DNA of 64,000 nucleotides from the NCBI RefSeq assembly GCF_030646845.1, contig NZ_JAUSLE010000021.1:1-64000 (forward strand). Reading direction: 5' to 3'. Position numbers and translations under genes: made by a program. The stretch's first letter is position 1, and every line of letters begins with the position of its first letter. Positions 13,472-64,000 of the stretch are shown piece after piece. The stretch comes from Rhodoferax sp. (GTDB lineage Bacteria > Pseudomonadota > Gammaproteobacteria > Burkholderiales > Burkholderiaceae_C). The notes below the pieces were generated by a model, which worked only from the letters and a program-made list of their open reading frames with translations, did not search any database and was not told the origin of the DNA.

Positions 13472-13472
13472 T

Positions 13473-32180: not shown

Positions 32181-32972
32181 GTGGACCCCGACTGGCTCGT
32201 TCCTCAATGGCCGGCGCCTGCCCATGTGCATGCGGTGTGCACCACGCGTGCCGGTGGCGTGTCGGCGGCACCGTTTGACTCGCTGAACCTGGGGGATCAC
32301 GTGGGGGACCGCCCGCTGGACGTCGCTGCCAATCGCGCCATTCTCCAACAGGCCATCAATGCGCGGCCCGTGTTTTTGTCGCAGGTGCACGGCACGCACG
32401 TCGAATGGTTGTCTGACAACACGGTGCATGGAACGCCAGCAGATGGCTGCATCACGGATCAGCCCCGGGTGGCCTGCACCATCATGGTGGCCGATTGCCT
32501 GCCGGTCCTGTTGACGAACGGGCAGGGGAGCCTGGTGGCTGCGGCGCATGCGGGCTGGCGTGGCCTGGCAGGCGAGGGCGGTCGCGGAGTGCTTGAGGCC
32601 GTTATTGAACGTTTTAGTGCTCCAGCCCCCGTGAATAAAGCGCAGGGTGCTACAAAAATAATAGCATGGCTGGGTCCCTGCATCGGACCGCAATCGTTTG
32701 AAGTGGGCGACGAAGTGCGCGACGCTTTCGTGGCGCATGACCCGGCGGCGCTGGCCATGTTCACGCCGAAGGCTGGCGACAGTTCGGGTGGCAAGTGGCT
32801 GGCAGATCTGCAAGGCCTGGCGCGCATGCGCCTGGCTGCACTGGGCGTTACCCGGATTTACGGCAACGATGGCACGCAGCCGTGGTGCACCGTGAGCAAT
32901 CCTTCACGGTTCTTTTCGTACCGGCGCGACCGCATCAGCGGCCGCATGGCCGCCAGCATCTGGCTTGACTAG
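32181..32972 (+). CDS. pgeF: Peptidoglycan editing factor PgeF (YfiH/laccase-like)
   Basis: A 263-residue YfiH-family protein, starting at GTG two bases after maiA. Zinc-binding candidates are His in LSQVHGTHVEW, Cys in VADCLPVLL and His in AAAHAGWRGLAG. C-terminal family stretches are WLGPCIGPQSFEVGDEV and NPSRFFSYRRD. PgeF-type proteins remove misincorporated amino acids from peptidoglycan precursors, and the fold also gives purine nucleoside phosphorylase or laccase activity. Residues about 144-162 (SAPAPVNKAQGATKIIA) are encoded by dispersed repeat copy C and lie in a loop just before the conserved WLGP strand. Confidence 0.92.
   Translation: MDPDWLVPQWPAPAHVHAVCTTRAGGVSAAPFDSLNLGDHVGDRPLDVAANRAILQQAINARPVFLSQVHGTHVEWLSDNTVHGTPADGCITDQPRVACTIMVADCLPVLLTNGQGSLVAAAHAGWRGLAGEGGRGVLEAVIERFSAPAPVNKAQGATKIIAWLGPCIGPQSFEVGDEVRDAFVAHDPAALAMFTPKAGDSSGGKWLADLQGLARMRLAALGVTRIYGNDGTQPWCTVSNPSRFFSYRRDRISGRMAASIWLD
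32612..32667 (-). repeat. Dispersed element, copy C, inside pgeF
   Basis: The minus strand reads TGCTATTATTTTTGTAGCA, a TGCGCTTTATTCACGGGGG block and GCTGGAGC. pgeF reads it on the opposite strand with the frame GCC CCC, giving A-P-A-P-V-N-K-A-Q-G-A-T-K-I-I-A. The copy is in frame and free of stops. Confidence 0.85.
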
Positions 32973-33182
32973 ATGGGCCGCAGCCATCTCGGCGGCCTCT
33001 CTGGCCTTGATTGCCCGGCGCCGCGCCGGCGCGCCCATCAGGTAGACCACCAATGCCACCGGCCCCAGGCCGTAGAGCACAAAGGTAATAAGCCCACCCA
33101 GTACGGTGCCATTTGAATTGGTGGCTTCGGCGATCGCCATCATGAGCGCAACATACAACCAGGCGATGGGCACAATGTACAT
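32904..33182 (-). CDS. Small membrane protein of unknown function
   Basis: A 92-residue protein. Two hydrophobic segments (MYIVPIAWLYVALMMAIAEA and VLGGLITFVLYGLGPVALVV) are followed by a basic stretch GAPARRRAIKAREAAEM and a polar tail. It looks like a conserved two-helix inner-membrane protein, with no function known to me. The 3' end overlaps the end of pgeF by 69 bases on the opposite strand, which is long for a convergent pair. It is divergent from phaC. Confidence 0.65.
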   Translation of the reverse strand: MYIVPIAWLYVALMMAIAEATNSNGTVLGGLITFVLYGLGPVALVVYLMGAPARRRAIKAREAAEMAAAHLVKPDAGGHAAADAVAPVRKEP

Positions 33183-33286
33183 AGATGAGCAAGTTCGCGG
33201 TTGAGTAGATCAATGTCAGTTTTTCGAAGGGGAAGACCTGAGATACTCGGGTTTCTACCAAGAAGCAACTATAACGGGGACACAGC

Positions 33287-35011
33287 ATGACACCGGATTC
33301 TCAAGAATTTTGGCCACAGTCGGCGCAGCAGTTTCAGCAGACCTTGAGTGAGGGGTGGATCAAGGCATTCCAGTCTTTTCAGAACATGGATCTGGGCTCC
33401 GCAGGTGCCCCTCTGGCCGCTCCGACCAGCAAGCCCCCCCAGATCAGGTTTTCGCCCGAGAAGTTGCAGGAGTTGCAGCAGCAGTACCTCAAAGACGCCG
33501 CCGGCCTGTGGATGAAGAGCCTGCAGGGCGCAACGCCGCCCAGCGACAAGCGCTTTGCCGCGCAGGCCTGGAGCGCCAACCCGGTGGCGGCCTTTTCGGC
33601 GGCCGCCTACCTGCTCAACGCCCGTACCCTGATGGGCATGGCGGACGCCGTGGAGACGGATCCCAAGACCCGCGCCCGCATCCGTTTTGCGGTGGAGCAG
33701 TTGACGGCGGCGGCCGCACCGAGCAACTTCCTGGCGTTCAATGCCGAAGCGCAAGAGAAGGCGATCGAGACAAAAGGCGAGAGCATTGCCAAGGGCGTGC
33801 AGAACATGCTGCATGACCTGCGCCAGGGCCATGTGTCCATGACGGACGAAAGCGTGTTCGAGGTGGGCAAAAATGTGGCGACCACCGAGGGCGCCGTGGT
33901 GTTTGAGAATGACTTGTTTCAGCTGATTGAATACAAGCCGCTCACGGCCAAGGTATTCGAGAAACCTTTTCTGCTCGTTCCGCCGTGCATCAACAAGTTC
34001 TATATCCTGGACTTGCAGCCGGAAAACTCTCTCATTCGTTATGCCGTGTCCCAGGGCCACCGAACGTTCGTTGTGAGCTGGCGCAATCCCGATGCGTCGC
34101 TGGCCCACAAAACCTGGGACGACTACATTGAAGACGCTGTGATCAAAGCCATTGCGGTCACCCAGGACATCACGGCAGCCAAGACCATCAATGCCCTGGG
34201 CTTCTGTGTCGGCGGCACGATGCTGGGCACGGCGCTGGCGGTACTGGCCGCGCGGGGGGAGAAGCCGGTGGCCAGTGCCACCTTCCTCACGTCCCTGCTG
34301 GATTTCACCGATACCGGAATTCTGGATGTCTTCATAGACGAATCCTTTGTCAAGTATCGCGAAAAAGAGATGGGCAAGGGCGGCTTGATGAAGGGGCAGG
34401 ATCTGTCAAGCACCTTCAGCTTCCTGCGGCCCAATGACCTGGTGTGGAACTACGTGGTGGGCAACTACCTCAAGGGAGAGACACCGCCACCGTTCGACCT
34501 GCTGTACTGGAACAGCGATTCCACCAATCTGCCGGGTCCTTTCTACGCCTGGTATCTGCGCAACACCTACCTGGAAAACAACCTGGTCAAGCCCGGCAAG
34601 ACGGTCGTTTGTGGTGAGAAAGTGGATTTGCGCACCGTCGACATGCCGGTCTACATCTACGGCTCACGCGAAGACCACATTGTTCCCATTGGCGGTGCCT
34701 ATGCCTCTACCCAACACCTGCCGGGAAAAAAGCGTTTTGTGATGGGTGCATCCGGTCACATTGCAGGCGTGATCAATCCACCGGCCAAGAACAAGCGCAG
34801 CCACTGGATTCGTGAAGACGGCAAGTTGCCCAAAACTCATGCTGATTGGCTGGCCGGGGCCACCGAGTACCCCGGCAGCTGGTGGACCGATTGGGCCCAA
34901 TGGCTCAAAGCCCACGCGGGCAAACAAATTCCTGCGCCCAAGACCTATGGCAAGGGTAAATACAAGGCGATCGAAGCCGCGCCCGGTCGCTACGTCAAGG
35001 CAAAAGCCTGA
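33287..35011 (+). CDS. phaC: Class I poly(3-hydroxyalkanoate) synthase
   Basis: A 574-residue class I PHA synthase that polymerises 3-hydroxyacyl-CoA on granules. The lipase-like box GFCVGGTMLG carries the catalytic Cys (about residue 308). GSREDHIVPIGGAYAS provides the catalytic Asp and FVMGASGHIAGVINPP the His. The N-terminal ~200 residues are the variable PHBC_N domain. The 104 bases upstream contain TATAAC (33270-33275) as a possible -10. phaA begins 65 bases after the stop and phaB follows, a complete PHB operon. Confidence 0.96.
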   Translation: MTPDSQEFWPQSAQQFQQTLSEGWIKAFQSFQNMDLGSAGAPLAAPTSKPPQIRFSPEKLQELQQQYLKDAAGLWMKSLQGATPPSDKRFAAQAWSANPVAAFSAAAYLLNARTLMGMADAVETDPKTRARIRFAVEQLTAAAAPSNFLAFNAEAQEKAIETKGESIAKGVQNMLHDLRQGHVSMTDESVFEVGKNVATTEGAVVFENDLFQLIEYKPLTAKVFEKPFLLVPPCINKFYILDLQPENSLIRYAVSQGHRTFVVSWRNPDASLAHKTWDDYIEDAVIKAIAVTQDITAAKTINALGFCVGGTMLGTALAVLAARGEKPVASATFLTSLLDFTDTGILDVFIDESFVKYREKEMGKGGLMKGQDLSSTFSFLRPNDLVWNYVVGNYLKGETPPPFDLLYWNSDSTNLPGPFYAWYLRNTYLENNLVKPGKTVVCGEKVDLRTVDMPVYIYGSREDHIVPIGGAYASTQHLPGKKRFVMGASGHIAGVINPPAKNKRSHWIREDGKLPKTHADWLAGATEYPGSWWTDWAQWLKAHAGKQIPAPKTYGKGKYKAIEAAPGRYVKAKA

Positions 35012-35076
35012 CCCTTTGATCGGTTGGGGACAGAACCGGTCTGTTCCGCCTTATTTGTTACCAAAGGAGAGAAAAA

Positions 35077-36255
35077 ATGGAAGACATCGTTATCGTTTCA
35101 GCCGCTCGCACCGCCGTCGGCAAATTCGGCGGAGCCCTCGCCAAAATCCCCGCGACCGAGCTTGGCGCGGCGGTCATCAAGGATTTGATGGCCCGCACGG
35201 GATTGGGCGTTGACCAGATCGGTGAAGTCATCATGGGCCAGGTGCTGGCGGCCGGTGCCGGCCAGAACCCGGCGCGCCAGGCGCTGATCAAGAGTGGCCT
35301 GGCGAAGGAAACCCCGGCGCTGACCATCAATGCCGTGTGCGGCTCGGGCCTCAAGGCCGTGATGCTGGCTGCGCAAGCGGTGGCCTATGGTGACAGCGAT
35401 ATTGTCATCGCCGGTGGCCAGGAGAGCATGAGTTCCTCGCCCCATGTCTTGCTGGGCTCACGTGATGGCCAGCGCATGGGTGACTGGAAGATGATCGACT
35501 CCATGATCGTTGACGGCCTGTGGGACGTCTACAACCAGTACCACATGGGCATCACGGCCGAGAACGTGGCCAGGCAATACGGCATCACGCGCGAAATGCA
35601 GGACGCCCTGGCCCTGGCCAGCCAGCAAAAGGCCGCAGCCGCCCAGGACGCCGGCAAGTTCAAGGACGAGATCGTGCCTTTCAGCATTGCCCAGAAGAAG
35701 GGCGACCCCATCGTCTTCGCGGCCGACGAATACCTCAACCGCAAGACCAATGCCGAAGCCCTGGCCGGTCTGCGCCCCGCCTTTGACAAGGCCGGTGGCG
35801 TGACAGCGGGTAACGCGTCCGGCCTGAACGATGGTGCGGCCGCCGTGATGGTGATGACCGCCAAGAAAGCGGCGGCACTGGGGCTCAAGCCGCTGGGTCG
35901 TATTGCCAGCTTTGCCACCAGTGGTCTGGACCCCGCTTTCATGGGCATGGGTCCGGTGCCGGCATCGCAAAAGGCGCTGGCTCGAGCTGGCTGGAAAGCC
36001 GCTGACCTGGACCTGCTTGAAATCAACGAAGCCTTCGCGGCGCAAGCCTGTGCAGTGAACAAGGAAATGGGCTGGGACACTTCCAAAGTCAACGTCAATG
36101 GTGGCGCGATCGCCATCGGGCACCCGATCGGTGCGTCCGGTTGCCGCATCCTGGTAACGCTACTGCATGAAATGCAGCGGCGCGATGCCAAAAAGGGAAT
36201 TGCCAGCCTGTGTATCGGCGGTGGCATGGGGGTTGCCCTAACTATCGAGCGCTGA
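35077..36255 (+). CDS. phaA: Acetyl-CoA acetyltransferase (beta-ketothiolase)
   Basis: A 392-residue thiolase that condenses two acetyl-CoA into acetoacetyl-CoA. The acyl-accepting Cys is in INAVCGSGLKAVMLAA (about residue 88). EINEAFAAQACAVNKEMG, AIGHPIGASGCRILVTLLHE and the C-terminal CIGGGMGVAL supply the remaining catalytic His and Cys. AAAGGAGAG precedes the ATG. It feeds phaB and phaC in the same operon. Confidence 0.96.
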   Translation: MEDIVIVSAARTAVGKFGGALAKIPATELGAAVIKDLMARTGLGVDQIGEVIMGQVLAAGAGQNPARQALIKSGLAKETPALTINAVCGSGLKAVMLAAQAVAYGDSDIVIAGGQESMSSSPHVLLGSRDGQRMGDWKMIDSMIVDGLWDVYNQYHMGITAENVARQYGITREMQDALALASQQKAAAAQDAGKFKDEIVPFSIAQKKGDPIVFAADEYLNRKTNAEALAGLRPAFDKAGGVTAGNASGLNDGAAAVMVMTAKKAAALGLKPLGRIASFATSGLDPAFMGMGPVPASQKALARAGWKAADLDLLEINEAFAAQACAVNKEMGWDTSKVNVNGGAIAIGHPIGASGCRILVTLLHEMQRRDAKKGIASLCIGGGMGVALTIER

Positions 36256-36296
36256 TTTCGCGTTCACAATGGGCTTTTAACAAGGAGGAACAAATC

Positions 36297-37034
36297 ATGA
36301 GCCAAAAAGTAGCATACGTCACCGGAGGCATGGGTGGCATTGGAACCGCCATCTGCCAGCGCCTGCACAAGGACGGATTCAAGGTCATCGCGGGCTCCGG
36401 CCCCACACGTGACCATGCCAAATGGCTGGCCGAGCAGAAGGCGTTGGGCTACACCTTCTACGCCTCGGTGGGCAACGTCGGCGATTGGGATTCCACCGTT
36501 GAAGCCTTCACCAAGGCCAAGGCAGAGCATGGCGCCATTGACGTGCTGGTGAACAATGCTGGCATTACGCGCGACCGCATGTTCGTGAAGATGACCCGTG
36601 AGGACTGGGATTCGGTGATCGAGACCAACCTGAATTCCATGTTCAACGTCACCAAGCAGGTGGTGGCCGACATGGTGGAAAAAGGCTGGGGCCGCATCAT
36701 CAACATCAGCTCCGTGAATGGCGAAAAGGGCCAGGCCGGGCAGACCAACTATTCGGCAGCCAAAGCCGGCATGCACGGCTTCAGCATGGCGCTGGCGCAG
36801 GAACTGGCCACCAAGGGCGTGACCGTCAACACCGTGAGCCCGGGTTACATCGGCACCGACATGGTCAAGGCGATTCGCCAGGACGTGCTCGACAAGATCG
36901 TCGCCACGGTGCCGGTCAAGCGTCTGGGCGAGCCCAGCGAGATTGCCTCCATCATCGCCTGGTTGGCGTCTGAAGAAGGTGGTTACGCCACTGGCGCCGA
37001 TTTCTCGGTGAACGGCGGTTTGCACATGGGCTGA
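36297..37034 (+). CDS. phaB: Acetoacetyl-CoA reductase
   Basis: A 245-residue NADPH-dependent short-chain dehydrogenase. VTGGMGGIGTAICQRL is the cofactor loop, INISSVNGEKGQAGQTNYS with YSAAKAG the Ser-Tyr-Lys active site, and NTVSPGYIGTDMV the family stretch. It makes (R)-3-hydroxybutyryl-CoA for PhaC. AAGGAGGAA precedes the ATG at 36297; the longer frame from 36210 overlaps phaA and is not used. A strong terminator follows 23 bases after its stop. Confidence 0.96.
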   Translation: MSQKVAYVTGGMGGIGTAICQRLHKDGFKVIAGSGPTRDHAKWLAEQKALGYTFYASVGNVGDWDSTVEAFTKAKAEHGAIDVLVNNAGITRDRMFVKMTREDWDSVIETNLNSMFNVTKQVVADMVEKGWGRIINISSVNGEKGQAGQTNYSAAKAGMHGFSMALAQELATKGVTVNTVSPGYIGTDMVKAIRQDVLDKIVATVPVKRLGEPSEIASIIAWLASEEGGYATGADFSVNGGLHMG

Positions 37035-37050
37035 TGCCCTTAGCAGGTAT

Positions 37051-37078
37051 AAAAAAACCCGCCAAGGCGGGTTTTTTT
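37051..37078. terminator. Bidirectional terminator between phaB and the ABC-F gene
   Basis: Seven A, stem CCCGCC (37058-37063), AA, GGCGGG (37066-37071) and seven T. With A-T pairing the stem extends further. It ends the phaCAB transcript and, on the other strand, the ABC-F transcript whose stop is at 37097. Confidence 0.92.
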
Positions 37079-37096
37079 ATTTTGAGTGAGCGCTGG

Positions 37097-39049: not shown

Positions 39050-39178
39050 GGAAATCTTTTCGGTTGGAATGAAATTGTGGATCGACAGGCCGGACCTGAT
39101 CCGGCATCCATCGCTGGGCGCAGTGTTCTGTGAGTTGCAGGTCGAGCCCGCAATGACCGCCCGGGAAAACCCTTGATT

Positions 39179-40066
39179 TTAGGCCAATAGCGCGTCGCGG
39201 GTCAGCAGCAGCACCTGGTCCTCACCGGCGCTGGTTTCCAGCCAGATGGCTCCGAGCCGGGGAAAGGCCGCTTCAAAGTGCTCACGTTCGTTGCCAATCT
39301 CCAGCACCAGGACGCCATGTTCGCTCATGTGGGCGGGCGCCTCGCGCAAGAGACTGCGGATGAAGTCCATGCCGTCGCTGCCGCCAGCGGCGTTGCCGTC
39401 CAGCGCCAGGGCGGGCTCGGCGTGGTATTCGGCGGGCAGGGCGGCCATGCTGGTCGCATTGACGTAGGGCGGGTTGCACAGAATCAGGTCGTAGGGCCCA
39501 CGGACATTGGACAGGCCATCGGAGGCCAGCAGGCTGATGCGCTCCTGCAGGCCGTGCTTGTCGACGTTGATGCGGGCCACGGCCAGTGCGTCGGCCGAGA
39601 TGTCGGCCGCATCCACGCTCACGTCCGGATAGGTCATGGCGGCGAGCACCGCCAGGCTGCCATTGCCGGTACACAGGTCAAGCACACGACGGGTCGATTC
39701 ACTCAGCCAGTAGTCAATGGCGCCATTGACCAGCAACTCCGCGATGAAGGAACGCGGCACGATGGCGCGTTCGTCCACGTAGAACGGCACGCCCTGCAGC
39801 CAGGCTTCGCGGGTCAGGTAGGCGGCAGGCTTGCGCGATGTAATTCTTGCTATTAAAAGTGTAGCTATCTGCGCTTGTTTGTCGGGGGCTACAGGCTGAT
39901 TTGCCATAGAGTCCGGACCGTCCAGCGGCGTGTCGAGCGGCAGGCCCAGCTGCCATAAAACCAGCCACGCCGCTTCGTCAAATGCGTTGCTGGTGCCGTG
40001 GCCAAACGCCACGCCGGCATCTGTGAGCTGTCTGGCGCCTGCTTCGATCAGTTCCAGAATCGTCAT
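39179..40066 (-). CDS. prmB: Ribosomal protein L3 glutamine methyltransferase PrmB
   Basis: A 295-residue SAM-dependent methyltransferase. [20 protein letters not shown] is the SAM-binding motif and [14 protein letters not shown] the NPPY catalytic motif. The stretch [18 protein letters not shown] is typical of PrmB/PrmC, and its position downstream of dapE plus overall N-terminus favour PrmB. It modifies a Gln of L3. Residues about 54-73 ([20 protein letters not shown]) are encoded by dispersed repeat copy D and lie in the N-terminal helical domain. Its ATG overlaps the dapE stop by four bases. Confidence 0.9.
39847..39903 (+). repeat. Dispersed element, copy D, inside prmB
   Basis: The plus strand reads TTGCTATTAAAAGTGTAGC, then CTGCGCTTGTTTGTCGGGGG and CTACAGGC. 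prmB, on the minus strand, reads it as [16 protein letters not shown], in the same frame relative to the element as copies C, E and G. Confidence 0.85.
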
Positions 40067-41238
40067 GGCGTCAGGCGCGTGGCCAGGTTTTCCAGCACCC
40101 GCCGGTAAATATTCTTGATGGGCTCAATATCTGCCACGGCCAGATGTTCGTCAATTTTGTGGATGGTGGCGTTGGGCGGCCCCAATTCGATCACCTGGGG
40201 GCAGATCTTGGCGATGAAGCGGCCGTCGCTGGTGCCGCCCGTGGTGGACAGCACGGTGTCAATACCGGTCTCAAGCTTGATGGCATCGACCACCGCCTGC
40301 ACCAGCGTGCCAGGCGTCGTGAGAAAAGGCAGGCCGCCGACTGTCCACGCCAGTTCATAGTCAAGCGCGTGCCGGTCCAGGACCGTCTGCAACCGTGCCT
40401 GAAGACTCTCAGGTGTCGACTCGGTGCAAAAGCGGAAATTGAAGTCAAGCACCACGGTGCCGGGAATCACATTGCTGGCACCGGTGCCGCCGTGGATGTT
40501 GCTGACCTGCCAGGTGGTGGGCGGAAAGAAAGCGTTGCCCTTGTCCCATTCGATGGTCACCAGCTCTGCCAGGGCGGGTGCGATCAGATGAATGGGATTT
40601 TTTGCCAGGTGCGGGTAGGCAATGTGACCCTGAACGCCCTTGACGGTGAGACGCCCGCTCATGGTGCCGCGGCGGCCGTTCTTGATCATGTCGCCGCTGC
40701 GCTCAACCGACGTGGGTTCACCGACGATGCAATAGTCGATGGTCTCGCCACGGGCCTTGAGGGCTTCGCAAACAATGACCGTGCCATCGGTGGCGGGGCC
40801 TTCTTCGTCGCTGGTCAGCAAGAAGCCAATCGACAAGGCGGCGTCAGGCTGCGCCGCCAGGAACTCTTCAACTGCGACGACAAACGCCGCCAGTGACGTT
40901 TTCATGTCGCTGGCACCCCGCCCATACAGCTTGCCGTCTCGATGTGTGGGCGTGAACGGGTCGCTGTGCCACTGGTCCAGTGGTCCCGTTGGCACGACAT
41001 CGGTGTGACCGGCAAACACTATCAATTCAGTAGCGCTTCCCGCTTGTTTGGCGGGGGCTCCAGCCCTTTTTGCCCATAAATTCGTGACACGGAAGTGGTC
41101 TGGCCCGCTGGTGATGGTTTCACAGACAAAACCCAGGGGCCCCAGGCGGGCCGCAATGATGTCCTGACAGCCCGCATCATCCGGTGTGAGCGATGGGCGG
41201 GAAATCAACTGTTCGGTAAGGCGCAGCGTGCTTGACAT
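40063..41238 (-). CDS. dapE: Succinyl-diaminopimelate desuccinylase
   Basis: A 391-residue zinc peptidase-fold enzyme of the lysine/peptidoglycan pathway. [17 protein letters not shown] holds the first metal His, [16 protein letters not shown] the bridging Asp and [14 protein letters not shown] the catalytic Glu. The C-terminal [20 protein letters not shown] completes the set. Residues about 55-74 between the conserved NLWA and VFAGH segments are encoded by dispersed repeat copy E ([18 protein letters not shown]). It overlaps prmB by four bases and follows pilU by 26 bases. Confidence 0.95.
41017..41072 (+). repeat. Dispersed element, copy E, inside dapE
   Basis: The plus strand reads CTATCAATTCAGTAGC, then CCCGCTTGTTTGGCGGGGG and CTCCAGCC. 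dapE reads it on the minus strand as [16 protein letters not shown], in the shared frame. The hairpin arms are less complementary than in other copies. Confidence 0.8.
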
Positions 41239-45329: not shown

Positions 45330-46130
45330 TTAGATCAGGGCCAACTCAACCGGGCATTCAAGGGCCAGCCAGTGCCGGGCCGCATTGCGCAGGCTTGCGC
45401 CATCGCCCGTGCTGAGCAGAATGCATTCCCCCGGGGCATCACCCGACGCCAGGATTTTCAGCATGCGGTGCGTCTGGCGCGCCACCGGTTCACCGTTGTC
45501 GATCAGGCGGACGTCAGGCCCCACCAGCGTGCGCAGGTGTTCACTGACAAACGGGTAGTGCGTGCAGCCCAGCACCAAGGTATCGATTTGCCCATATTTG
45601 GTGCCAAATTGGCCTATAGCCCCCGTGCAATAAGCGCACAGTGCTATCATTTTAATAGTATCTTCGCGCTCGATGGCATCCGCCAGTCCATCGCACGGCT
45701 GGCAAATGAAGTCGGCCTGGCCGGCCAGGGAATCGACCAGGGCGCGGAATTTTGCGCTGGCCAATGTGCTGCGGGTGGCCATGACACCAATGCGCCGGGT
45801 TCGGCTGTGGGCCACCGCAGGTTTGAGCGCCGGCTCGACGCCGATGATGGGGAGGTCAGGGTGCTCGTCGCGCAGCAAATGAATGGCCGCCGCCGTGGCC
45901 GTGTTGCAGGCGATCACCAGGGCCTTGATGTCGTATCGTGCCCGCAGGTGCGCCGTGATCGCACGCGACCGCTCGATCACATGCGCGTTGTCGCGCTCCC
46001 CGTAAGGCGCATGGGGGGCACTGTCCGCGAGGTAGACAAAGTCTTCATGGGGCAGCTCGGTACGCAAGGCCTTGAGAATGCTCAGGCCGCCGATGCCGCT
46101 GTCAAAGACGCCAACGGGGGTGCGCTTCAC
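45330..46130 (-). CDS. murI: Glutamate racemase
   Basis: A 266-residue enzyme making D-glutamate for peptidoglycan. VGVFDSGIGGLSILKAL is the start, VIACNTATAAAIHLL holds the first catalytic Cys and TLVLGCTHYPFVSEHL the second. The start is placed at GTG 46130, which overlaps the fumarase stop as GTGA, so the two genes are translationally coupled; the longer frame starting at 46184 is a run-through of the fumarase region. Residues about 156-175 (DTIKMIALCAYCTGAIGQFG) are encoded by dispersed repeat copy F, read in the sense direction of the element. Confidence 0.93.
   Translation of the reverse strand: MKRTPVGVFDSGIGGLSILKALRTELPHEDFVYLADSAPHAPYGERDNAHVIERSRAITAHLRARYDIKALVIACNTATAAAIHLLRDEHPDLPIIGVEPALKPAVAHSRTRRIGVMATRSTLASAKFRALVDSLAGQADFICQPCDGLADAIEREDTIKMIALCAYCTGAIGQFGTKYGQIDTLVLGCTHYPFVSEHLRTLVGPDVRLIDNGEPVARQTHRMLKILASGDAPGECILLSTGDGASLRNAARHWLALECPVELALI
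45605..45661 (-). repeat. Dispersed element, copy F, inside murI (sense orientation)
   Basis: The minus strand reads ACTATTAAAATGATAGC, then TGCGCTTATTGCACGGGGG and CTATAGGC. This is the only in-gene copy read on its sense strand, encoding T-I-K-M-I-A-L-C-A-Y-C-T-G-A-I-G. The arms form a clean palindrome. Confidence 0.85.
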
Positions 46131-47686
46131 CCTGCGGCGACTGAAATTCCCTTGAACTCGCCGGTGGCAATTCTTTTTTGCCACTCGGACGGACCGGTGA
46201 TGTGGGCGCTGGTGCCGCCAGAATCGACCGCCACGGTGACAGGCATGTCGACCACGTCGAATTCGTAAATGGCTTCCATGCCCAGATCGGCAAAGCCCAC
46301 GACGGTTGCACTCTTGATGGCCTTGCTCACCAGGTAGGCGGCGCCGCCCACGGCCATCAAATAGGCGCTCTTGTGTTTCTTGATGGCCGCAATTGCGACC
46401 GGGCCGCGCTCGGCCTTGCCGATCATCGAGATCAGCCCGGTTTCGCTCAGCATCATCTCGGTGAAATCATCCATGCGGGTGGCGGTGGTGGGGCCGGCCG
46501 GGCCCACGGCCTCGCCCTTGACCGGATCGACCGGGCCAACGTAGTAAATCACGCGGTTGGTGAAGTCGACCGGCAATTTCTCGCCCTTGGCCAGCATGTC
46601 CTTGATGCGCTTGTGGGCGGCGTCGCGGCCGGTCAGCATCTTGCCGTTGAGCAGCAGGGTATCGCCGGGTTTCCAGCTGGCGACTTCTTCCTTGGTCAGG
46701 GTGTTGAGGTCTACCTTTTTGCTCTTCACGTAGTCGGGGGTCCAGGCCACATCGGGCCACAGGTCCAGTGACGGTGGGTCTAGATAGACCGGGCCGCTGC
46801 CGTCCATCACAAAATGGGCGTGGCGCGTGGCCGCGCAGTTGGGAATCATGGCCACGGGTTTGCTGGCGGCATGGGTGGGGTACATCTTGATCTTGATGTC
46901 CAGCACGGTGGTCAGGCCGCCCAGGCCCTGCGCGCCGATACCCAGCGCGTTAACCTTGTCAAACAGTTCCAGCCGCAGGGCTTCCGTCTTGTTCAGTTCG
47001 GCACCGCTGGCCGCCTTGGCCTGCAGCTCATACATGTCCAGGTCGTCCATCAGGCTCTCCTTGGCCATCAGCACGGCTTTTTCAGCGGTGCCGCCAATAC
47101 CGATCCCCAGCATGCCGGGCGGGCACCAGCCGGCGCCCATGGTGGGCACGGTCTTGAGTACCCAGTCCACCACCGAGTCGCCGGGGTTGAGCATGACCAT
47201 CTTGCTTTTGTTTTCACTGCCGCCGCCCTTGGCCGCCACGGTCACTTCCAGCGTGTTGCCGGGCACGATTTCAGAGAAGATCACCGCTGGCGTGTTGTCT
47301 TTGGTGTTCTTGCGCTCGAACTGCGGGTCGGCCACCACGCTGGCGCGCAGGGTGTTGTCGGGGTGGTTGTAGGCGCGGCGCACGCCTTCGTTGATGGCGT
47401 CGTCCAGGCTGCCGGTGAACCCTTCCCAGCGCACGTCCATGCCGACCTTGAGGAACACGTTGACGATGCCGGTATCCTGGCAAATTGGGCGGTGGCCGGT
47501 GGCGCTCATCTTGCTGTTGGTCAGGATTTGCGCGATGGCGTCCTTGGCCGCCGGGCTTTGCTCACGCTCGTAAGCGCGCGCCAGGTGGGCAATGTAGTCG
47601 GCCGGGTGGTAATACGAGATGTACTGCAGGGCGGCGGCAACGGATTCGATCAGGTCGGCCTGCTTGATGTGTGTGGTCATGGTCAT
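46127..47686 (-). CDS. fumA: Fumarate hydratase, class I (4Fe-4S)
   Basis: About 519 residues, single-chain class I fumarase. ICQDTGIVNVFLKVGMDV contains a cluster Cys, GSENKSKMVMLNPGDSV and MGAGWCPPGMLGIGIGGTAE a second Cys region, and GPTTATRMDDFTEMML the start of the beta domain. It converts fumarate to malate, linking the gentisate product to the TCA cycle. The start is ATG 47686 or 47680 (MTMTTHIKQADLIES); the frame stays open upstream to 48550 but that part is a shadow of the antiporter gene. Its stop overlaps the murI start. Confidence 0.94.
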   Translation of the reverse strand: MTMTTHIKQADLIESVAAALQYISYYHPADYIAHLARAYEREQSPAAKDAIAQILTNSKMSATGHRPICQDTGIVNVFLKVGMDVRWEGFTGSLDDAINEGVRRAYNHPDNTLRASVVADPQFERKNTKDNTPAVIFSEIVPGNTLEVTVAAKGGGSENKSKMVMLNPGDSVVDWVLKTVPTMGAGWCPPGMLGIGIGGTAEKAVLMAKESLMDDLDMYELQAKAASGAELNKTEALRLELFDKVNALGIGAQGLGGLTTVLDIKIKMYPTHAASKPVAMIPNCAATRHAHFVMDGSGPVYLDPPSLDLWPDVAWTPDYVKSKKVDLNTLTKEEVASWKPGDTLLLNGKMLTGRDAAHKRIKDMLAKGEKLPVDFTNRVIYYVGPVDPVKGEAVGPAGPTTATRMDDFTEMMLSETGLISMIGKAERGPVAIAAIKKHKSAYLMAVGGAAYLVSKAIKSATVVGFADLGMEAIYEFDVVDMPVTVAVDSGGTSAHITGPSEWQKRIATGEFKGISVAAG

Positions 47687-55154: not shown

Positions 55155-55240
55155 AGATCAAACTGATGATTTTTCATTGTAGCCAGAGCTGCGGCGTGGC
55201 CAGCGCCAACCGCCCTCCCGCTGCGAGGATCAGGTTGGTT

Positions 55241-57995: not shown

Positions 57996-58011
57996 GGCTG
58001 CAAAAATGAAA

Positions 58012-58044
58012 GCTGGCAACCCACGTATTGAGAGGGTTGCCAGC
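58012..58044 (+). other. Perfect 11-bp hairpin directly after acs
   Basis: GCTGGCAACCC (58012-58022), an 11-base loop and GGGTTGCCAGC (58034-58044) form a perfect stem beginning 16 bases after the acs stop. No T run follows, so it is not a standard terminator by itself. It could protect the transcript's 3' end or pause polymerase before the true terminator. Confidence 0.7.
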
Positions 58045-58069
58045 CAATTTGAGCAAAAATCAAGCCCGC

Positions 58070-58097
58070 AAAAAAGCCCGCATCTGCGGGCTTTTTT
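58070..58097. terminator. Bidirectional terminator between acs and cytochrome c
   Basis: Six A, stem GCCCGCA (58076-58082), TC, TGCGGGC (58085-58091) and six T. It serves acs on the plus strand and the cytochrome gene on the minus strand, which ends at 58120. Confidence 0.92.
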
Positions 58098-58119
58098 GCG
58101 GGGAGCAGGCTAAATCAGA

Positions 58120-58422
58120 TCAGCTTGCCAGAACCCAGACAGCCAGTTTCTTGGCGTCAGCTTCGTTGACTTGCGCGTTGGCAGGCATCGGCACGGGTCC
58201 CCAAACGCCAGAGCCACCTTTGATGATCTTGGCTGCCAGTTTGTCAGCAGCATCTTTTTGACCAGCGTACTTCTTGGCGACGTCTTTGTAAGACGGGCCC
58301 ACGAGTTTCTTGTCAACAGCGTGGCATGCCATGCAGTTCTTGGACGTCGCCAAGGCCTGATCGGCAAATGCAGGAGCAGCTAAAGAAACTGCGGCGACTA
58401 AGGCAAAGAGAGCATGTTTCAT
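58120..58422 (-). CDS. Class I c-type cytochrome, c551/c552-like
   Basis: A 100-residue periplasmic electron carrier. Residues 1-20 (MKHALFALVAAVSLAAPAFA) are a signal peptide. The haem site CMACH lies about residue 30, and the Met ligand is in GPVPMPANAQ near residue 77, so haem is His-Met ligated. GGSGVWGP is the usual stretch before the Met in cytochrome c551/c552. ATG 58422 has GAGGAAAT upstream. It probably donates electrons to a terminal oxidase or reductase. Confidence 0.92.
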   Translation of the reverse strand: MKHALFALVAAVSLAAPAFADQALATSKNCMACHAVDKKLVGPSYKDVAKKYAGQKDAADKLAAKIIKGGSGVWGPVPMPANAQVNEADAKKLAVWVLAS

Positions 58423-58526
58423 CGATATTTCCTCGTGGGTTGGTATACAGTCAACTAACGCTATTCTAATCGTATCGGTTGACACGCGTTGCCGATGGAT
58501 CAATTGAGAAATGACAGGAGACTGAG

Positions 58527-58772
58527 ATGTATTTACTGGGATTGGGACTCATTTTGCTGGTCTTGAAATATCTTGAAATCGGACCCGTGGCGGCTTGGGC
58601 CTGGTGGATCGTCCTGGCACCATTTGGCCTGGCTATTCTGTGGTGGACCTGGGCCGACGCTTCGGGGTACACGAAGAAGAAGGCCATGGAGCGTGAGAAT
58701 GCACGTCGACAGGCTCGAATTGACGGCAATCGCGAAGCCCTTGGCACCCTGTCCAACAAGAGAAGGCGTTGA
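58527..58772 (+). CDS. Small Trp-rich membrane protein (TIGR04438 type)
   Basis: An 81-residue protein. MYLLGLGLILLVLKYLEIGP and AWAWWIVLAPFGLAILWWTW are two hydrophobic stretches, followed by a conserved WADASGYTKKKAMERENARR segment and a basic tail. This matches the small Trp-rich family seen in Betaproteobacteria; its function is unknown. ACAGGAGA precedes the ATG. It is divergent from the cytochrome gene. Confidence 0.85.
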   Translation: MYLLGLGLILLVLKYLEIGPVAAWAWWIVLAPFGLAILWWTWADASGYTKKKAMERENARRQARIDGNREALGTLSNKRRR

Positions 58773-58789
58773 CGAATCATTAAAGAAAA

Positions 58790-58823
58790 GAAGCCCGCCC
58801 GGCAATGCCGGGCGGGCTTCTTT
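58790..58823. terminator. Strong GC-rich terminator between the Trp-rich gene and ilvD
   Basis: GAAGCCCGCCCGGC (58790-58803), AAT and GCCGGGCGGGCTTC (58807-58820) form a 14-bp stem flanked by an A/G-rich stretch on one side and TTTC on the other. It likely works for both convergent genes. Confidence 0.85.
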
Positions 58824-58846
58824 CTATCAACTGCGTGAATCGGTTA

Positions 58847-60541
58847 TCAGTAGTTGTCGAGCACAGCGCCCTTGCTGGCCGTTGAGGCGTTGAACGCAAA
58901 CTTGGCCTGCACGCCCCGGGTATAGCGGGGCTTCGGTGCCGTCCAGGCGGCGCGCCGTTTGGCAATTTCTGCGTCACTGACATTGAGTTGCAGCAGCAAC
59001 TGGTGCGCATCGATGGTGATTGAGTCGCCCTCGTGGATGAAGGCAATAGTGCCGCCTGCTGCCGCTTCCGGCGCCACGTGACCTACCACCATACCCCAAG
59101 TGCCGCCCGAGAAGCGGCCGTCGGTAATCAGTCCCACCGACTCGCCCAGACCCTGTCCGACCAATGCGCCGGTAGGGGCCAGCATTTCTGGCATGCCGGG
59201 GCCACCTTTGGGGCCCAGGTAGCGCAACACCATCACATCGCCGGCGACGATCTTGTTTGCCAGAATGGCGGTCAGGGCGGACTGCTCATCGTCAAACACG
59301 CGGGCCGGACCGGTCATCACGGGGTTTTTCAGGCCGGTGATCTTGGCCACGCAGCCCTCGGGTGACAGATTTCCCTTGAGAATGGCCAAATGCCCCTGCG
59401 CGTACATCGGGTTACTCAGGGGACGAATGACATCCTGGTCGGCACGCGGCACATCCGGCACGTCTTTCAGAACTTCTGCAATGGTCTGACCTGTGATGGT
59501 GATGCAGTCGCCGTGCAGCAAACCTGCGGACAACAGAGTTTTCATGACCTGGGGGATGCCGCCGGCGCGGTGCAGGTCCACAGCCAGGTATTGGCCGCTG
59601 GGCTTGAGGTCGCACAGCACGGGGGTCTTGACGCGCACGCGCTCGAAGTCGTCAATCGTCCATTCGACGCCAGCCGCATGGGCAATCGCCAGGAAGTGCA
59701 GCACGGCATTGGTGGAGCCACCGGTGGCCATGATGACGGCGACGGCATTCTCGATGGATTTGCGCGTCACGATGTCGCGTGGCTTGAGGTCGTTCCTGAT
59801 GGCCTCGACCAGAACTTTGGCCGACTCTCTGGCCGAGTTCACCTTCTCGTCATGCGGGTTGGCCATCGTGCTCGAATACGCCAGCGAGATGCCCAGCGCC
59901 TCAAAAGCGGATGACATGGTGTTGGCCGTGTACATGCCGCCGCATGAACCGGTGCCGGGGATGGCGCGACGCTCGATTTCCAGCAGGTCCTCGTCGCTCA
60001 TGCGGCCGGCCGCGTTCTCGCCCACGGCTTCGAACACGCTCACGATATTGAGGTCTTTGCCCTTGTAATGGCCGGGCAGAATGGTGCCGCCGTAAACAAA
60101 GATGGCGGGCACATTGGCGCGCAGCATGCCCATCAGGCCGCCCGGCATGTTCTTGTCGCAGCCGCCCACGACCAGCACGCCATCCATCCACTGGCCCTGC
60201 ACGCAGGTCTCAATACAGTCGGAAATAACCTCGCGGCTCACCAGCGAGTACTTCATGCCCTCTGTCCCCATGGCCATGCCATCAGAAATGGTGGGGGTGC
60301 CGAATACCTGGGCGTTGCCGCCGGCCTCTTCAATCGCGGCAATCGCGGCATCCGCCAGCTTCTGCAGCCCGCTGTTGCAGGGCGTGATGGTGCTGTGGCC
60401 ATTGGCAACGCCGATCATGGGCTTCTTGAAATCACCCTCTTCATAGCCCATCGCGTAGTACATGGAGCGATTGGGCGCGCGCGACTTGCCCTCGGTGATA
60501 TTTTTGCTGCGGGGGTTCATGACGACGGGTTTGGTGTCCAT
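58847..60541 (-). CDS. ilvD: Dihydroxy-acid dehydratase
   Basis: A 564-residue IlvD/Edd-family enzyme of branched-chain amino acid synthesis, converting dihydroxy acids to 2-keto acids with an Fe-S cluster. Cluster Cys are in [16 protein letters not shown] and [20 protein letters not shown]; a conserved start [20 protein letters not shown] and the C-terminal [20 protein letters not shown] confirm the family. TATGGAC at the start overlaps an AGGAGG-like region upstream. It is divergent from a LysR regulator. Confidence 0.96.
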
Positions 60542-60607
60542 AGGAGGTCTCTCTCAAAAGGGGTTGCGATTTTCAGGCAAGAGTATGCGCCGGGCTATTA
60601 TGTTGTT

Positions 60608-60630
60608 CCAATATATTTTTTATGGCTTGG
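60608..60630. promoter_or_regulatory. AT-rich divergent promoter with CCAA/TTGG dyad
   Basis: In the 104 bases between ilvD and the LysR gene, CCAA (60608-60611) and TTGG (60627-60630) form inverted half-sites around an AT-rich core, a plausible LysR-type binding site near the regulator's own start. Symmetry is weak, so this is a suggestion only. Confidence 0.35.
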
Positions 60631-60645
60631 TAATATGTTTTGCAT

Positions 60646-61614
60646 ATGAGTGAGTTGACCAACCCGTCGCCTGATACCTCGTTAACCCCGCATCTCGTTG
60701 AACTGCGGCTTTGGCGGCAGTTCGTGGCCGTGGCCGAGGAACTGCATTTTGGCCATGCCGCCACGCGCCTGCACATGACCCAGCCGCCCTTGACGCAAGC
60801 CATTGCCCATCTGGAGAGGAGCCTGGGCGTTCGCCTGTTTGATCGCACCAAGCGCAGCGTGCAACTCACCGCGACCGGTCAGGCCTTGTTGCCGGCTGCG
60901 CTGGATCTGCTGGCGCGCGCGCAGGCCTTGCCGGCTCAGGCCCGGGCGGCGGCGGCGGGCGAGGTCGGGCGCTTGCGGCTGGCCTTTGTATCTACCGTGG
61001 GTTTTGCGTTGCTGCCCCGGTGGGTGCGCGCTTTTCGGGAGATCTACCCCAAGGTGCAGCTGGACCTGCTGGAAGCGACGGGCGACCTGCAATTGCAGGG
61101 ACTCGAACGCGGGGAGGTGGACGCCGGCTTCATGCTGCATGCGCCGGGGTTCGCCCCGGCCGGCCTAGCGCATTTGCTGATCACACAAGAGCCGCTGGTG
61201 CTGGCCTTGCCCGAGCAGCACCCGCTGGCGACTCGACCCATGCTGGCTCTGGCGGACGTGCTGTCCGAGCCGCTGGTCATCTTTCCGCGGCGCATCGTGC
61301 CGTCGCTGTTCGATGCCATTTTTGCCCGCTACCACGCGGCGGGTTGCCTGCCGTTGGTGGCGCAGGAGGCCATCCAGATGCAGACCATTGTCAACCTGGT
61401 GTCGGCCGGGCTGGGTGTGGCCTGGGTGCCGGACAGCGTGCGCCAGTTTCAGCGCTCCGGGGTGGTGTACCGCGAGGTCGGAGCCACCCGCCAGGCGACG
61501 GACAAAATGTTCAGCGCGATGCCCGGCTGCGAAACCAGCCTGGTATGGGGTTCCGAGGGAGCCAGTCCGACGCTGCAGCGATTTGTTGCGTTTGCAGGGT
61601 CACAGCTCACGTGA
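60646..61614 (+). CDS. LysR family transcriptional regulator
   Basis: A 322-residue LysR-type regulator. Residues about 20-80 form the winged helix-turn-helix (FVAVAEELHFGHAATRLHMT and QPPLTQAIAHLERSLGVRLF). The C-terminal substrate domain begins GRLRLAFVSTVGFALLPRWV. ATG 60646 is preferred to the TTG at 60640. Divergence from ilvD suggests it may control ilvD, but its effector is unknown. Confidence 0.92.
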   Translation: MSELTNPSPDTSLTPHLVELRLWRQFVAVAEELHFGHAATRLHMTQPPLTQAIAHLERSLGVRLFDRTKRSVQLTATGQALLPAALDLLARAQALPAQARAAAAGEVGRLRLAFVSTVGFALLPRWVRAFREIYPKVQLDLLEATGDLQLQGLERGEVDAGFMLHAPGFAPAGLAHLLITQEPLVLALPEQHPLATRPMLALADVLSEPLVIFPRRIVPSLFDAIFARYHAAGCLPLVAQEAIQMQTIVNLVSAGLGVAWVPDSVRQFQRSGVVYREVGATRQATDKMFSAMPGCETSLVWGSEGASPTLQRFVAFAGSQLT

Positions 61615-61657
61615 GCGCAAATACTGACAGGCGGCACTTGCGTGCACAATGCCGTCC

Positions 61658-62476
61658 ATGCTGATCCATCCCCAAATTAACCCCATCGCTGTGCAACTCG
61701 GCCCTTTGGCCGTCCATTGGTATGGACTGACCTATCTGGCCGCTTTTGGGCTGTTCATGTTGCTCGGTATCCGGCGCCTGCGGCATGAACCGTTTGCCTC
61801 GATCACCGGGGCCGGTGCCTGGTCGCGCAAGGACGTGGAGGACATTCTGTTTCTCGGCGTGATGGGTGTGGTGCTGGGTGGCCGTATTGGCTATTGCCTG
61901 TTCTACAAGCCACTCTATTACCTCGCGCATCCGCTGGAGATATTTGCGGTGTGGCAAGGGGGTATGAGTTTTCATGGCGGCATGCTGGGGGTCATTGCCG
62001 CCATGATCTGGTTTGCGCACTCACGCGGCCGGCCCTGGCTGCAGGTGGCTGATTTTGTGGCTCCGTGTGTGCCTACGGGGCTGGCGGCGGGGCGGGTGGG
62101 CAATTTCATCAATGGTGAGTTGTGGGGTCGTTTGAGTAGCCCGGACCTGCCTTGGGGCATGGTGTTCCGGGATGCGGGGGACTTGCCGCGCCATCCGTCG
62201 CAGGTGTATCAGTTCTTGCTGGAAGGTCTGCTTTTGTTCGTGCTGTTGTGGCTGTACGCGCGCAAGGAACGCAAGCAAGGCCAGGTGGCGGCGGCCTTTC
62301 TGCTGGGCTATGGGGTGTTTCGCTTCATTGCAGAGTTCTTCCGTGAGCCCGATGCCCATCTCGGCATCCTTTCGCTGGGCATGAGCATGGGGCAATGGCT
62401 GTGCGTGCCCATGATCGTGGGCGGCGTCGCACTGTGGTTCTGGGCGCGGGCGCGCCCCTCAACCAGACGCCAGTAG
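61658..62476 (+). CDS. lgt: Prolipoprotein diacylglyceryl transferase
   Basis: A 272-residue inner-membrane enzyme with seven helices that adds diacylglycerol to the lipobox Cys of lipoproteins. [18 protein letters not shown] near the start, [20 protein letters not shown] with the essential His and the Lgt signature [15 protein letters not shown] are all present; [20 protein letters not shown] is the last conserved block. The start is ATG 61658 or 61649. It lies 43 bases after the LysR gene. Confidence 0.95.
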
Positions 62477-62531
62477 CGGCCCCGGGTTTGTACTGAGGGG
62501 AAAATTCTTGCGTTTCCCAGTCCGGTTTTCC

Positions 62532-62549
62532 ATAATTACCGGAAATTAT
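62532..62549. promoter_or_regulatory. 18-bp near-perfect palindrome upstream of the GntR gene
   Basis: ATAATTACCGGAAATTAT matches its reverse complement at 16 of 18 positions and lies 53 bases before the GntR-gene ATG. GntR/FadR-type regulators often bind such dyads in their own promoters, so autoregulation of the GntR gene and the downstream decarboxylase gene is likely (inference). Confidence 0.6.
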
Positions 62550-62602
62550 TGAAAATTACACGCACGCGATCCCGCCAGTTCACACGGAAAGCCAACTTCA
62601 AC

Positions 62603-63271
62603 ATGCGCCTGGTCTATAACTCCCTGCACGATGAAGTCGCGGTGCTGCTGCGGGACCAGATCTTCGCCGGCACACTGGCGCCAGGCAGCTTCATTGACGA
62701 AGCCGCGCTGTGCGCCAGCCTGAAAATCTCGCGCACACCGCTGCGCGAGGCGCTCAAGGTGCTCAGTGCCGAGGGCTTGGTGCGCCACGAGCCACGCCGC
62801 GGCAGTTTCGTCAACGAGGTGACCGAGCAGGACCTGGATGAGATATTCCCCGTGATTGCCTTGCTGGAGGGCCGTTGTGCGTTCGAGGCCGCGCGCAACG
62901 CCAGCGATGCCGACATCGCCGCACTGGACACACTGCACGAGCGCCTGGAGAAACATGCCAGGGCCCGGCGCATCAACGACTACTACGCCACCAACTTCGC
63001 CATTCACGAGGCCATCATCTCGCTGGCCAATAACCGCTGGCTGGCCCAGGTGATTGCCGACCTGCGCAAAATTCTCAAGCTCGCACGGTTGCAGCAGCTG
63101 CATGCGCCGGGTCGGCTGGAGCAAAGCCTGAGTGAGCATCTTGCCATCTATGCCGCCCTGCGGGCGCGCGACTGCGAAGTTGCCGACGCGGCGATGCGTA
63201 CCCACCTCACGCACCAGCGTGAGGCCCTGCGCGAACTTGCGCGTACCCAGAAAAGCAGGTTGCTGGCATGA
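62603..63271 (+). CDS. GntR family regulator, FCD (FadR) subgroup
   Basis: A 222-residue regulator. Residues about 5-70 form the winged helix (VAVLLRDQIFAGTLAPGSFI, LKISRTPLREALKVL, RHEPRRGSFVNEV). Residues about 80-210 form the all-helical FCD effector domain with metal/acid ligands in NFAIHEAIISLANN and SEHLAIYAAL. Its stop overlaps the start of a malonyl-CoA decarboxylase gene (ATGA), so it probably regulates malonate or malonyl-CoA use, like the MatR/MdcY group. ATG 62603 is chosen at the domain start. Confidence 0.92.
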   Translation: MRLVYNSLHDEVAVLLRDQIFAGTLAPGSFIDEAALCASLKISRTPLREALKVLSAEGLVRHEPRRGSFVNEVTEQDLDEIFPVIALLEGRCAFEAARNASDADIAALDTLHERLEKHARARRINDYYATNFAIHEAIISLANNRWLAQVIADLRKILKLARLQQLHAPGRLEQSLSEHLAIYAALRARDCEVADAAMRTHLTHQREALRELARTQKSRLLA

Positions 63272-64000
63272 ACACTTCTGACTGGATCAGCCGCAGCGTC
63301 TCCAGACTGCTGCCTGCCGCCGGATTGGGCAAGAAAATGGTTGTAGCCCCCGCCGATAATGCGGAGGTTGCTATTAAGACAATAGCATCTGCCACAGGCA
63401 TGACGGGGCAGGGGCTGCCTGCTGGCAATCTCGCGGCAGCCCCGGTCAGCACCAGCGCCCGTCCCGCCTTGCGATCTACCCGCGAGCGTCTGGCCGGCAC
63501 CTTGCGCCACAAGGAGGAAGCTCTGTCACCGCGGGTGCTGCGTCGCACGTTGACCGAGTTGCAGGCCGTGGTGGACAGCCATGTCAGCGAGGTGGAAGGC
63601 GGACGCCGTGCCCGGGCGGTAGCACAGTGGTACGCACGCGCCACGGTGGAGCGCCGGCGTGACATGTGGCTGCTGATGAGCGAGCAGTTCGTGGCAGATC
63701 CACAAATAGTGAAGCAGGCGCATGCCCAGTTCGCTGCATCCGTCGGCACCCCCGATGAAGCGGCGGCCGAAGTGCAGTACCGCCGCGCAACGGTGTCACC
63801 GCGCCGGCGTTTGCTGCAGCGCTTCAGCGCCTTTCCGGAAGGCATACGTTTCCTGGTGGACATGCGCGCCGAAATGCTGCCTTACCTCAAGTCCGACAAG
63901 CGCTTGCAGGCTCTGGATGTCGAGATGGAATACATGTTCTCCACCTGGTTTGACGTCGGTTTTCTGGACCTGCGTCGCATCAGCTGGGACTCACCCGCCT
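63268..64000 (+). CDS. Malonyl-CoA decarboxylase, 3'-truncated
   Basis: The first 244 residues are visible before the window ends. The N-terminal helical domain includes TRERLAGTLRHKEEALSPRV, ARAVAQWYARATVERRRDMW and FPEGIRFLVDMRAEMLPYLK, then LDVEMEYMFSTWFDVGFLDL, matching malonyl-CoA decarboxylase, which releases acetyl-CoA and CO2. Residues about 22-40 (VVAPADNAEVAIKTIA) come from dispersed repeat copy G and sit in a variable N-terminal region with further Ala/Pro-rich sequence. It is translationally coupled to the GntR gene. Confidence 0.88.
   Translation, partial: MNTSDWISRSVSRLLPAAGLGKKMVVAPADNAEVAIKTIASATGMTGQGLPAGNLAAAPVSTSARPALRSTRERLAGTLRHKEEALSPRVLRRTLTELQAVVDSHVSEVEGGRRARAVAQWYARATVERRRDMWLLMSEQFVADPQIVKQAHAQFAASVGTPDEAAAEVQYRRATVSPRRRLLQRFSAFPEGIRFLVDMRAEMLPYLKSDKRLQALDVEMEYMFSTWFDVGFLDLRRISWDSPA
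63333..63388 (-). repeat. Dispersed element, copy G, inside malonyl-CoA decarboxylase gene
   Basis: The minus strand reads ATGCTATTGTCTTAATAGC, then CCTCCGCATTATCGGCGGGGG and CTACAACC in part. The host gene reads the other strand in the shared frame as V-V-A-P-A-D-N-A-E-V-A-I-K-T-I-A. Confidence 0.83.

Follow-up and report, generated by a model that had tools for sequence, protein, structure and literature searches.

A long dispersed DNA motif within Rhodoferax genes that probably changes in place and may serve as an uptake-signal-like address

Why should unrelated housekeeping proteins of one bacterium carry a common short peptide? The question is raised by a stretch of 64,000 nucleotides from a Rhodoferax sp. 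genome (RefSeq assembly GCF_030646845.1, contig NZ_JAUSLE010000021.1, positions 1 to 64,000; hereafter the window), in which pgeF, prmB, dapE and the gene for malonyl-CoA decarboxylase each contain a copy of the same dispersed repeat. The original prediction, made from the letters of this stretch, described a palindromic element inserted into genes in the manner of the Rickettsia palindromic elements and read in all four genes in the same frame as one peptide. The analysis reported here leads to a different picture, in which the repeat is probably not a jumping element but a DNA signal of about 56 bases that, within genes, changes in place, and in which it may act as an address tag for recognising DNA of the cell's own kind.

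The window holds seven copies of the motif:

8974..9033, minus strand: copy without an assigned coding frame
13471..13530, plus strand: copy where two predicted genes converge, at their 3' ends (rough gene calls)
32610..32669, minus strand: copy in pgeF (open reading frame (ORF) 32181-32972, plus strand; Pfam Cu-oxidase_4), antisense frame A1, peptide FSAPAPVNKAQGATKIIA
39845..39904, plus strand: copy in prmB (ORF 39179-40066, minus strand), antisense frame A1
41014..41073, plus strand: copy in dapE (ORF 40063-41238, minus strand; Pfam Peptidase_M20), antisense frame A1
45604..45663, minus strand: fifth coding copy, in murI (ORF 45330-46184, minus strand; Pfam Asp_Glu_race), sense frame S2, peptide TIKMIALCAYCTGAIGQF
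63331..63390, minus strand: copy in the gene for malonyl-CoA decarboxylase, close to the N-terminus (ORF from 63268, plus strand, running past the window end), antisense frame A1, peptide KMVVAPADNAEVAIKTIA

The four copies proposed at the outset are all real, lie within a few bases of where they had been placed, share antisense frame A1 and encode the peptides quoted for them, but the list was incomplete with respect to murI and the two copies outside called coding frames. Pfam recognises MCD and MCD_N in the malonyl-CoA decarboxylase ORF, and in the prmB product the general MTS methyltransferase domain alone, with HemK relatives among the solved structures. With a profile built from 18 copies outside the window, which had themselves first been found by window-seeded searches, the seven copies obtain E-values of 1.1e-13 to 6.9e-9. 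A profile of 25 copies gave 124 matches at E<=0.1 in the real genome sample and 0 in decoys made from the same sample by reversal or by resampling with a first-order Markov chain, and together these values exclude chance as the source of the family.

In the source genome (G000, 4.35 Mb, the window being part of its contig C74) an 861-kb sample contains 101 copies at E<=1e-4, which under the assumption of even density extrapolates to about 510 copies per genome. The consensus, in the G000 dialect GCTAt-N7-ATAGCt-N4-gCGCa-N7-ACGgGGGCTagaGgCc-N-aTtT, spans about 56 bp in several blocks and carries about 53 bits of information in G000 and 58 bits in the motif-rich congener G010. Insertions or deletions (indels) are found in none of the 101 copies of the sample alignment and in none of 215 copies in named loci, counts that have to be read with the facts that local profile alignments may conceal indels and that one of 26 aligned copies, bearing a one-base insertion, was excluded from the 25-row seed alignment, so that the models start indel-free. 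Mean identity of the 101 copies to the consensus is 69%, and since even the closest pair of copies is only 82% identical, there is no sign of recent duplication. The palindromic character ascribed to the repeat holds only in part, columns 5-10 and 16-21 pairing in 86% of cells and a second arm in 64%; the second arm is palindromic in the consensus of G010 and not in that of G000, and no covariation above that of shuffles was detected in the arms.

Of these 101 copies, 45 were called coding: 29 passed a two-flank coding score, 15 more were taken in by hand under less strict scores, and the copy in malonyl-CoA decarboxylase completes the set. The claim of a single shared frame and peptide survives as a preference: frame A1 accounts for 26 of the 45 coding copies, but 19 use other frames (S2 10, S0 5, A0 2, S1 1, A2 1), and the murI peptide differs. 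Part of this preference follows from which frames lack stops, as among the 57 other copies (a set that for this count includes the malonyl-CoA decarboxylase copy) S2 is open in 41, A1 in 33, A0 in 29, S1 in 22, A2 in 1 and S0 in 0, and an additional preference for A1 remains. In the five S0 copies the words that usually contain stops appear by eye to be altered. A Pfam search of 30 host ORFs, all but two of which matched a family at E<=1e-10, added NAD-dependent DNA ligase, FGAR amidotransferase (PurL), ComEC, NAD synthase, shikimate dehydrogenase, diaminopimelate epimerase, the exonuclease VII large subunit, CoaBC, IPP transferase and genes for a UvrD-type helicase and PD-(D/E)XK nucleases. 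One DNA family inside unrelated genes, encoding a common peptide in a preferred frame at sites tolerated by the protein, is a sound part of the first description.

The behaviour of the sites was followed in four congeners, namely G010, whose genome is complete and whose proteins are about 75% identical to those of G000, and the motif-poor G006 (6 copies), G007 (0) and G012 (0). Counting orthologues only at a flank identity of >=0.5, the 45 coding sites have 30 orthologues in G010, 31 in G006, 36 in G007 and 29 in G012; for malonyl-CoA decarboxylase no orthologue was found in these four genomes. A hidden Markov model (HMM) built without G010 finds the motif (score >=10) at the corresponding site in 28 out of 30 orthologues from G010, with the strand conserved in all 28, and in none of the 31, 36 and 29 orthologues of G006, G007 and G012. 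At these shared sites the two genomes use different dialects, G010 having CAAGCGCTA where G000 has CGGGGGCTA. Column 41 is G in 28 of 28 sites in G000 and in G010 is C in 19, G in 8 and T in 1 (Fisher P 8e-9), while column 38 is G in 26 of 28 sites in G000 and in G010 is A in 18, G in 6, C in 3 and T in 1 (Fisher P 1e-7), both tests using the two main bases and leaving out the few others. Orthologous copies of G000 and G010 are 68% identical and non-orthologous ones 54%, so that the copies have apparently descended in place with the dialect shifting together.

Within the coding copies the constraint is visible at the level of DNA. At the 28 sites with a motif in G010, third bases of codons for unchanged residues are identical between G000 and G010 in 193 of 280 cases in the motif and in 1188 of 2241 in the flanks (Fisher P 4e-7); in all eight other genome pairs computed third-base identity is lower in the motif than in the flanks, only slightly so for G007-G012. 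The GC content of third codon positions (GC3) inside and outside the motif at the same 28 sites is 0.43/0.78 in G000, 0.27/0.68 in G010, 0.55/0.67-0.68 in G006, 0.72/0.77-0.78 in G007 and 0.82/0.84-0.85 in G012. In a tree of two genes, computed without the motif columns, G006 is the neighbour of G000 (support 0.815), and in conjunction with this position the lowered, intermediate GC3 at former motif sites of the nearly motif-free sister G006 suggests loss of the motif followed by decay. Seen in this light, the peptide common to these proteins looks incidental to a DNA motif that is maintained and changes in concert.

Alignment of the coding sites with their orthologues addresses the central part of the original prediction, that a mobile element had been inserted whole. 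No indel lies within 12 residues of the site in 21 of the G006, 22 of the G007, 22 of the G012 and 24 of the G010 orthologues. A motif-less congener orthologue is available for 39 sites; for 31 of these an alignment without a gap exists with one or more such orthologues, and for 21 with every one found. The motif-less orthologues, those of PrmB and PgeF being of similar length, often carry a segment of equal length at the motif site, and the sites are naturally variable segments. Protein identity there is 0.40 between the motif-poor G006 and G007, compared with about 0.76 in their flanks, and this low value between two genomes without the motif indicates that the motif sits in tolerant segments; the highest site identity, 0.57, belongs to the pair G000-G010, though its flanks are not the closest. 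The alignments with solved structures are gap-free through the motif site for LigA (2owo) and CoaBC (1u7u), both from Escherichia coli, whereas DapE structures have 8 residues fewer at the site and PrmB shows a one-residue gap against solved HemK relatives. At none of the 39 coding sites with a motif-poor orthologue was an insertion of the whole element with clean boundaries found, and the mostly gap-free congener alignments do not support one. The modest similarity of even the best copy pair, the nearly fixed spacing and the presence of the motif at orthologous positions in a distant congener likewise speak against mobility.

With a covariance model at E<=1e-4, matches were obtained in 19 of the 24 genus genomes, G000 included, and in none of the 16 genomes searched that belong to other families of the order. 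Its abundance within the genus is patchy and ranges from 0 in five of 23 congeners to at least 137-150 matches, the counts being taken over the best 137-150 candidates per genome and thus lower bounds for the abundant ones. Exact matches to a shared core occur, among 80 of at least 120 stretches, in Rhodoferax, Polaromonas, Acidovorax, Diaphorobacter, Simplicispira, Ottowia, Hylemonella, Curvibacter, Paenacidovorax, unclassified relatives and one Mesopusillimonas. Variant consensuses were obtained for Polaromonas, for Acidovorax and its allies, for Ottowia and for other loci, from small samples of loci that had been picked by the motif. Deep conservation outside the genus was not borne out: the motif stands at its place in 5 of 21 alignments of named loci, but the choice of loci had itself relied on three of these five matches; one independent case is a shikimate dehydrogenase in L343. 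Phage records rarely carry it: a blastn search with the consensus matched 1 of 50,697, and the exact pattern had 0 matches in viral contigs, a weak test given that few copies match the pattern exactly.

A concerted change at many dispersed but fixed sites suggests a reader that acts in trans. Copying and pasting does not yield concerted change and selection at each single site seems too weak; sequence-biased import followed by homologous recombination would yield it. We therefore regard an uptake-signal-like recognition motif, spread by biased recombination of imported DNA, as a somewhat better than even explanation of the pattern. Under this explanation a multi-block recognition motif of about 56 bp would be kept at some 500 sites by a trans-acting factor, the sites being altered mostly by in-place substitution in protein-tolerant gene segments and near gene ends. 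The factor would be the DNA-uptake machinery of natural transformation; DNA in the local dialect would enter the cell in preference to other DNA and then recombine at the homologous locus, so that motif-bearing alleles would displace others by molecular drive, as for the DNA uptake sequences (DUS) and uptake signal sequences (USS). Lineages that lose or alter the specificity would see their sites decay, and the common peptide would be a side effect of the DNA signal on the proteome.

For DUS in Neisseriaceae and USS in Pasteurellaceae, biased import with homologous recombination is the account given, with dialects acting as barriers (PMC7811141, PMC3630211), and USS are said to "evolve by point mutations ... 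they are not inserted elements" (PMC7811141). Like these signals, which occur in many genic and intergenic copies, change by substitution in place and form lineage dialects (PMC3630211, PMC7811141), the Rhodoferax motif is strongly over-represented (0 in decoys), substitutes in place within the genus and differs in dialect between lineages. The motif is found in a different bacterial family, however, and its several blocks extend over about 56 bp compared with a core of 9-12 bp in DUS and USS. Transformation that depends on the origin of the DNA is on record or indicated for two Comamonadaceae, Acidovorax temperans and Verminephrobacter. The former was transformed solely by DNA of its own species, and in the latter uptake looks selective, an excess of salmon DNA cutting transformation merely to a plateau (PMC4212676). 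We put the chances at about even that Comamonadaceae possess a third, independently evolved uptake-signal system, which would comprise a multi-block address of about 56 bp, species dialects, common peptides in dozens of housekeeping proteins and sequence-biased transformation.

Several observations weigh against an uptake-type signal that changes in place. DUS and USS promote uptake or transformation via a pilus receptor, and the Rhodoferax motif, with 53-58 bits, is far longer than a DUS or USS core. A gene for ComEC is present in G000, itself with a motif copy, and in 22 of the 24 genus genomes, G000 included, the two without a match being motif-rich drafts; across the 24 its presence does not predict motif abundance. 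Consensus-like sequence (E<=1e-3) occurs in 1,808 of 72,556 plasmid records. The spacing is not absolute either, as whole-genome searches gave a span different from 60 bases for 3 of the best 150 matches in G000 and for 7 of 150 in G010. In G000 the motif strand is opposite to the GC skew in 72 of 97 copies on contigs C74, C65, C7 and C46 (P 2e-6), with 2 and 2 copies on a fifth stretch, C53, and in 42 of 56 non-coding copies; such a strand bias is not known to be a feature of uptake signals. It would suit a chromosome-maintenance site to which a protein of the nucleoid, of segregation or of repair binds, with selection at each site and dialects that track the protein, as would the nearly fixed spacing and the scarcity in phage records. 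Yet the best 150 matches on the complete G010 chromosome divide into 70 plus and 80 minus without a clear strand switch, about 500 sites of more than 50 bits each seem too many and too long for per-site selection, and five of the 23 congeners are without a match, so that we consider this explanation unlikely.

A mobile element of the REP (repetitive extragenic palindromic) or MITE (miniature inverted-repeat transposable element) kind, the Rickettsia type included, would have been inserted anciently and then, in some lineages, have eroded while protein length stayed constant. Part of the alignments speak for this, and they also count against change in place. At 8 of the 39 sites no motif-less congener is gap-free, G000 being 8-14 residues longer at most of them, and the exonuclease VII site of G000 is 17 residues longer than in G007 and 11 longer than in G006, but gap-free against G012. 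When 12 chosen sites of the 45 were compared with three other families of the order, matches were obtained for 11, and only 4 of 30 comparisons, at two of the 11 sites (LigA and CoaBC), were gap-free; at the others G000 is mostly longer, often by 3-13 residues and by 13 at most. The loops that host the motif are often longer in this genus, with or without the motif. The orthologue check proposed with the original prediction thus gave a divided answer, with no clean whole insertion but with extra length at several sites, and because of these longer sites and the eight that are never gap-free, part-length insertion may have occurred at some of them. None of the 30 outgroup comparisons shows a net insertion of full element length, near-identical copies and indels among the 101 copies are absent, LigA and CoaBC are gap-free against both structures and outgroups, and copying alone does not yield a concerted dialect difference at fixed sites; overall, a mobile origin appears quite unlikely. 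Very improbable, in our judgement, is a transcription terminator or RNA hairpin that spills into genes. Non-coding copies do favour convergent gaps (15 of 55, compared with 36 of 382 gaps of >=60 bp) and are rarer in divergent ones (6 of 55 and 87 of 382) by rough gene calls, but 45 of 101 copies were called coding, the arms lack covariation, the second arm is palindromic in one consensus and not in the other, and Rfam yields no match at gathering scores.

REP elements mobilised by REP-associated tyrosine transposases (RAYT) are likewise short and partly palindromic and reach hundreds of copies. Many copies of the Rhodoferax motif, in contrast, are genic and in place, and their number is unrelated to the presence of a Y1 transposase: Y1_Tnp is found in 24 of 24 genus genomes, including motif-less ones, at RAYT size in 23 of them and as a short match only in G008. 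Points for a mobile origin are this wide occurrence of the gene and, in G000, one weak motif copy (E 4e-5) about 330 bp from the domain of such a gene:

G000, contig C10, 19919-20242 (L155): Y1 transposase gene of RAYT size

With no link between transposase and copy number and a single weak copy nearby, a REP/RAYT system was rejected.

Two spaced motifs from the family have been described before. Tong et al. (2017) reported ATAGCT(N)22CAAAAG in Polaromonas naphthalenivorans and GCTTAT(N)5AAGCG in Acidovorax ebreus on statistical grounds as potential novel motifs without a function, and in their set of genomes Rhodoferax ferrireducens had the highest number of motif pairs (PMC5217627). By position alone, not on those genomes, the words and spacing of both fit the middle of the Rhodoferax motif, and like it they lie mostly near gene ends and often between convergent genes; coding frames, dialects and in-place evolution of the two are not treated in the accessible part of that report (PMC5217627). 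In the open-access literature we found nothing that links these motifs, describes dialects of them or names an uptake signal of Comamonadaceae.

On present evidence the motif would work like an uptake signal and is a candidate member of that class. Were it one, a large environmental family would join the bacteria that recognise their own DNA by sequence tags, and its signal would be far longer than those known. Gene exchange between species would meet a natural barrier, in line with the species-specific transformation reported in Acidovorax, and a drive acting at the level of DNA would shape the sequences of proteins in many places. Should the factor be something other than uptake, it would still be unusual for a long motif to differ in concert between species while its dispersed sites stay the same.

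The plasmid matches have an annotation in common, 17 of 20 rows out of the 1,808 naming a DUF1010 protein. In plasmid R751 (L414, 501-552) a consensus-like copy overlaps an ORF annotated as DUF1010 between qacE and dfrB3, and this copy may stem from a motif-bearing chromosome. DUF1010 may in part be a reading across the motif; the Pfam model gives four weak sub-threshold matches in G010, two of them overlapping motif positions, and no match in G000, G006 or G012.

The Rickettsia palindromic elements, to which the repeat had been likened, resemble it in being dispersed, partly palindromic and in frame within unrelated genes, but they are insertions of about 150 bp (PMC10969869), whereas the Rhodoferax motif has about 56 bp and stands mostly in place. 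A conserved in-gene peptide is common to both (A1 in 26 of 45 coding copies), and whole in-frame insertion was not observed for the motif. Betaproteobacterial repeat elements (BRE) are also dispersed in Comamonadaceae with some genic copies, but by description they are set apart from the motif by a length of about 90 bp, a GC content of 69% in Bordetella and their frequent tandem arrangement (PMC3110155). At 12937-13106 the window contains two tandem GC-rich units with a spacing of about 82-84 bp, which in size and GC content, their sequence not having been compared, recall the BRE of Bordetella and Comamonadaceae.

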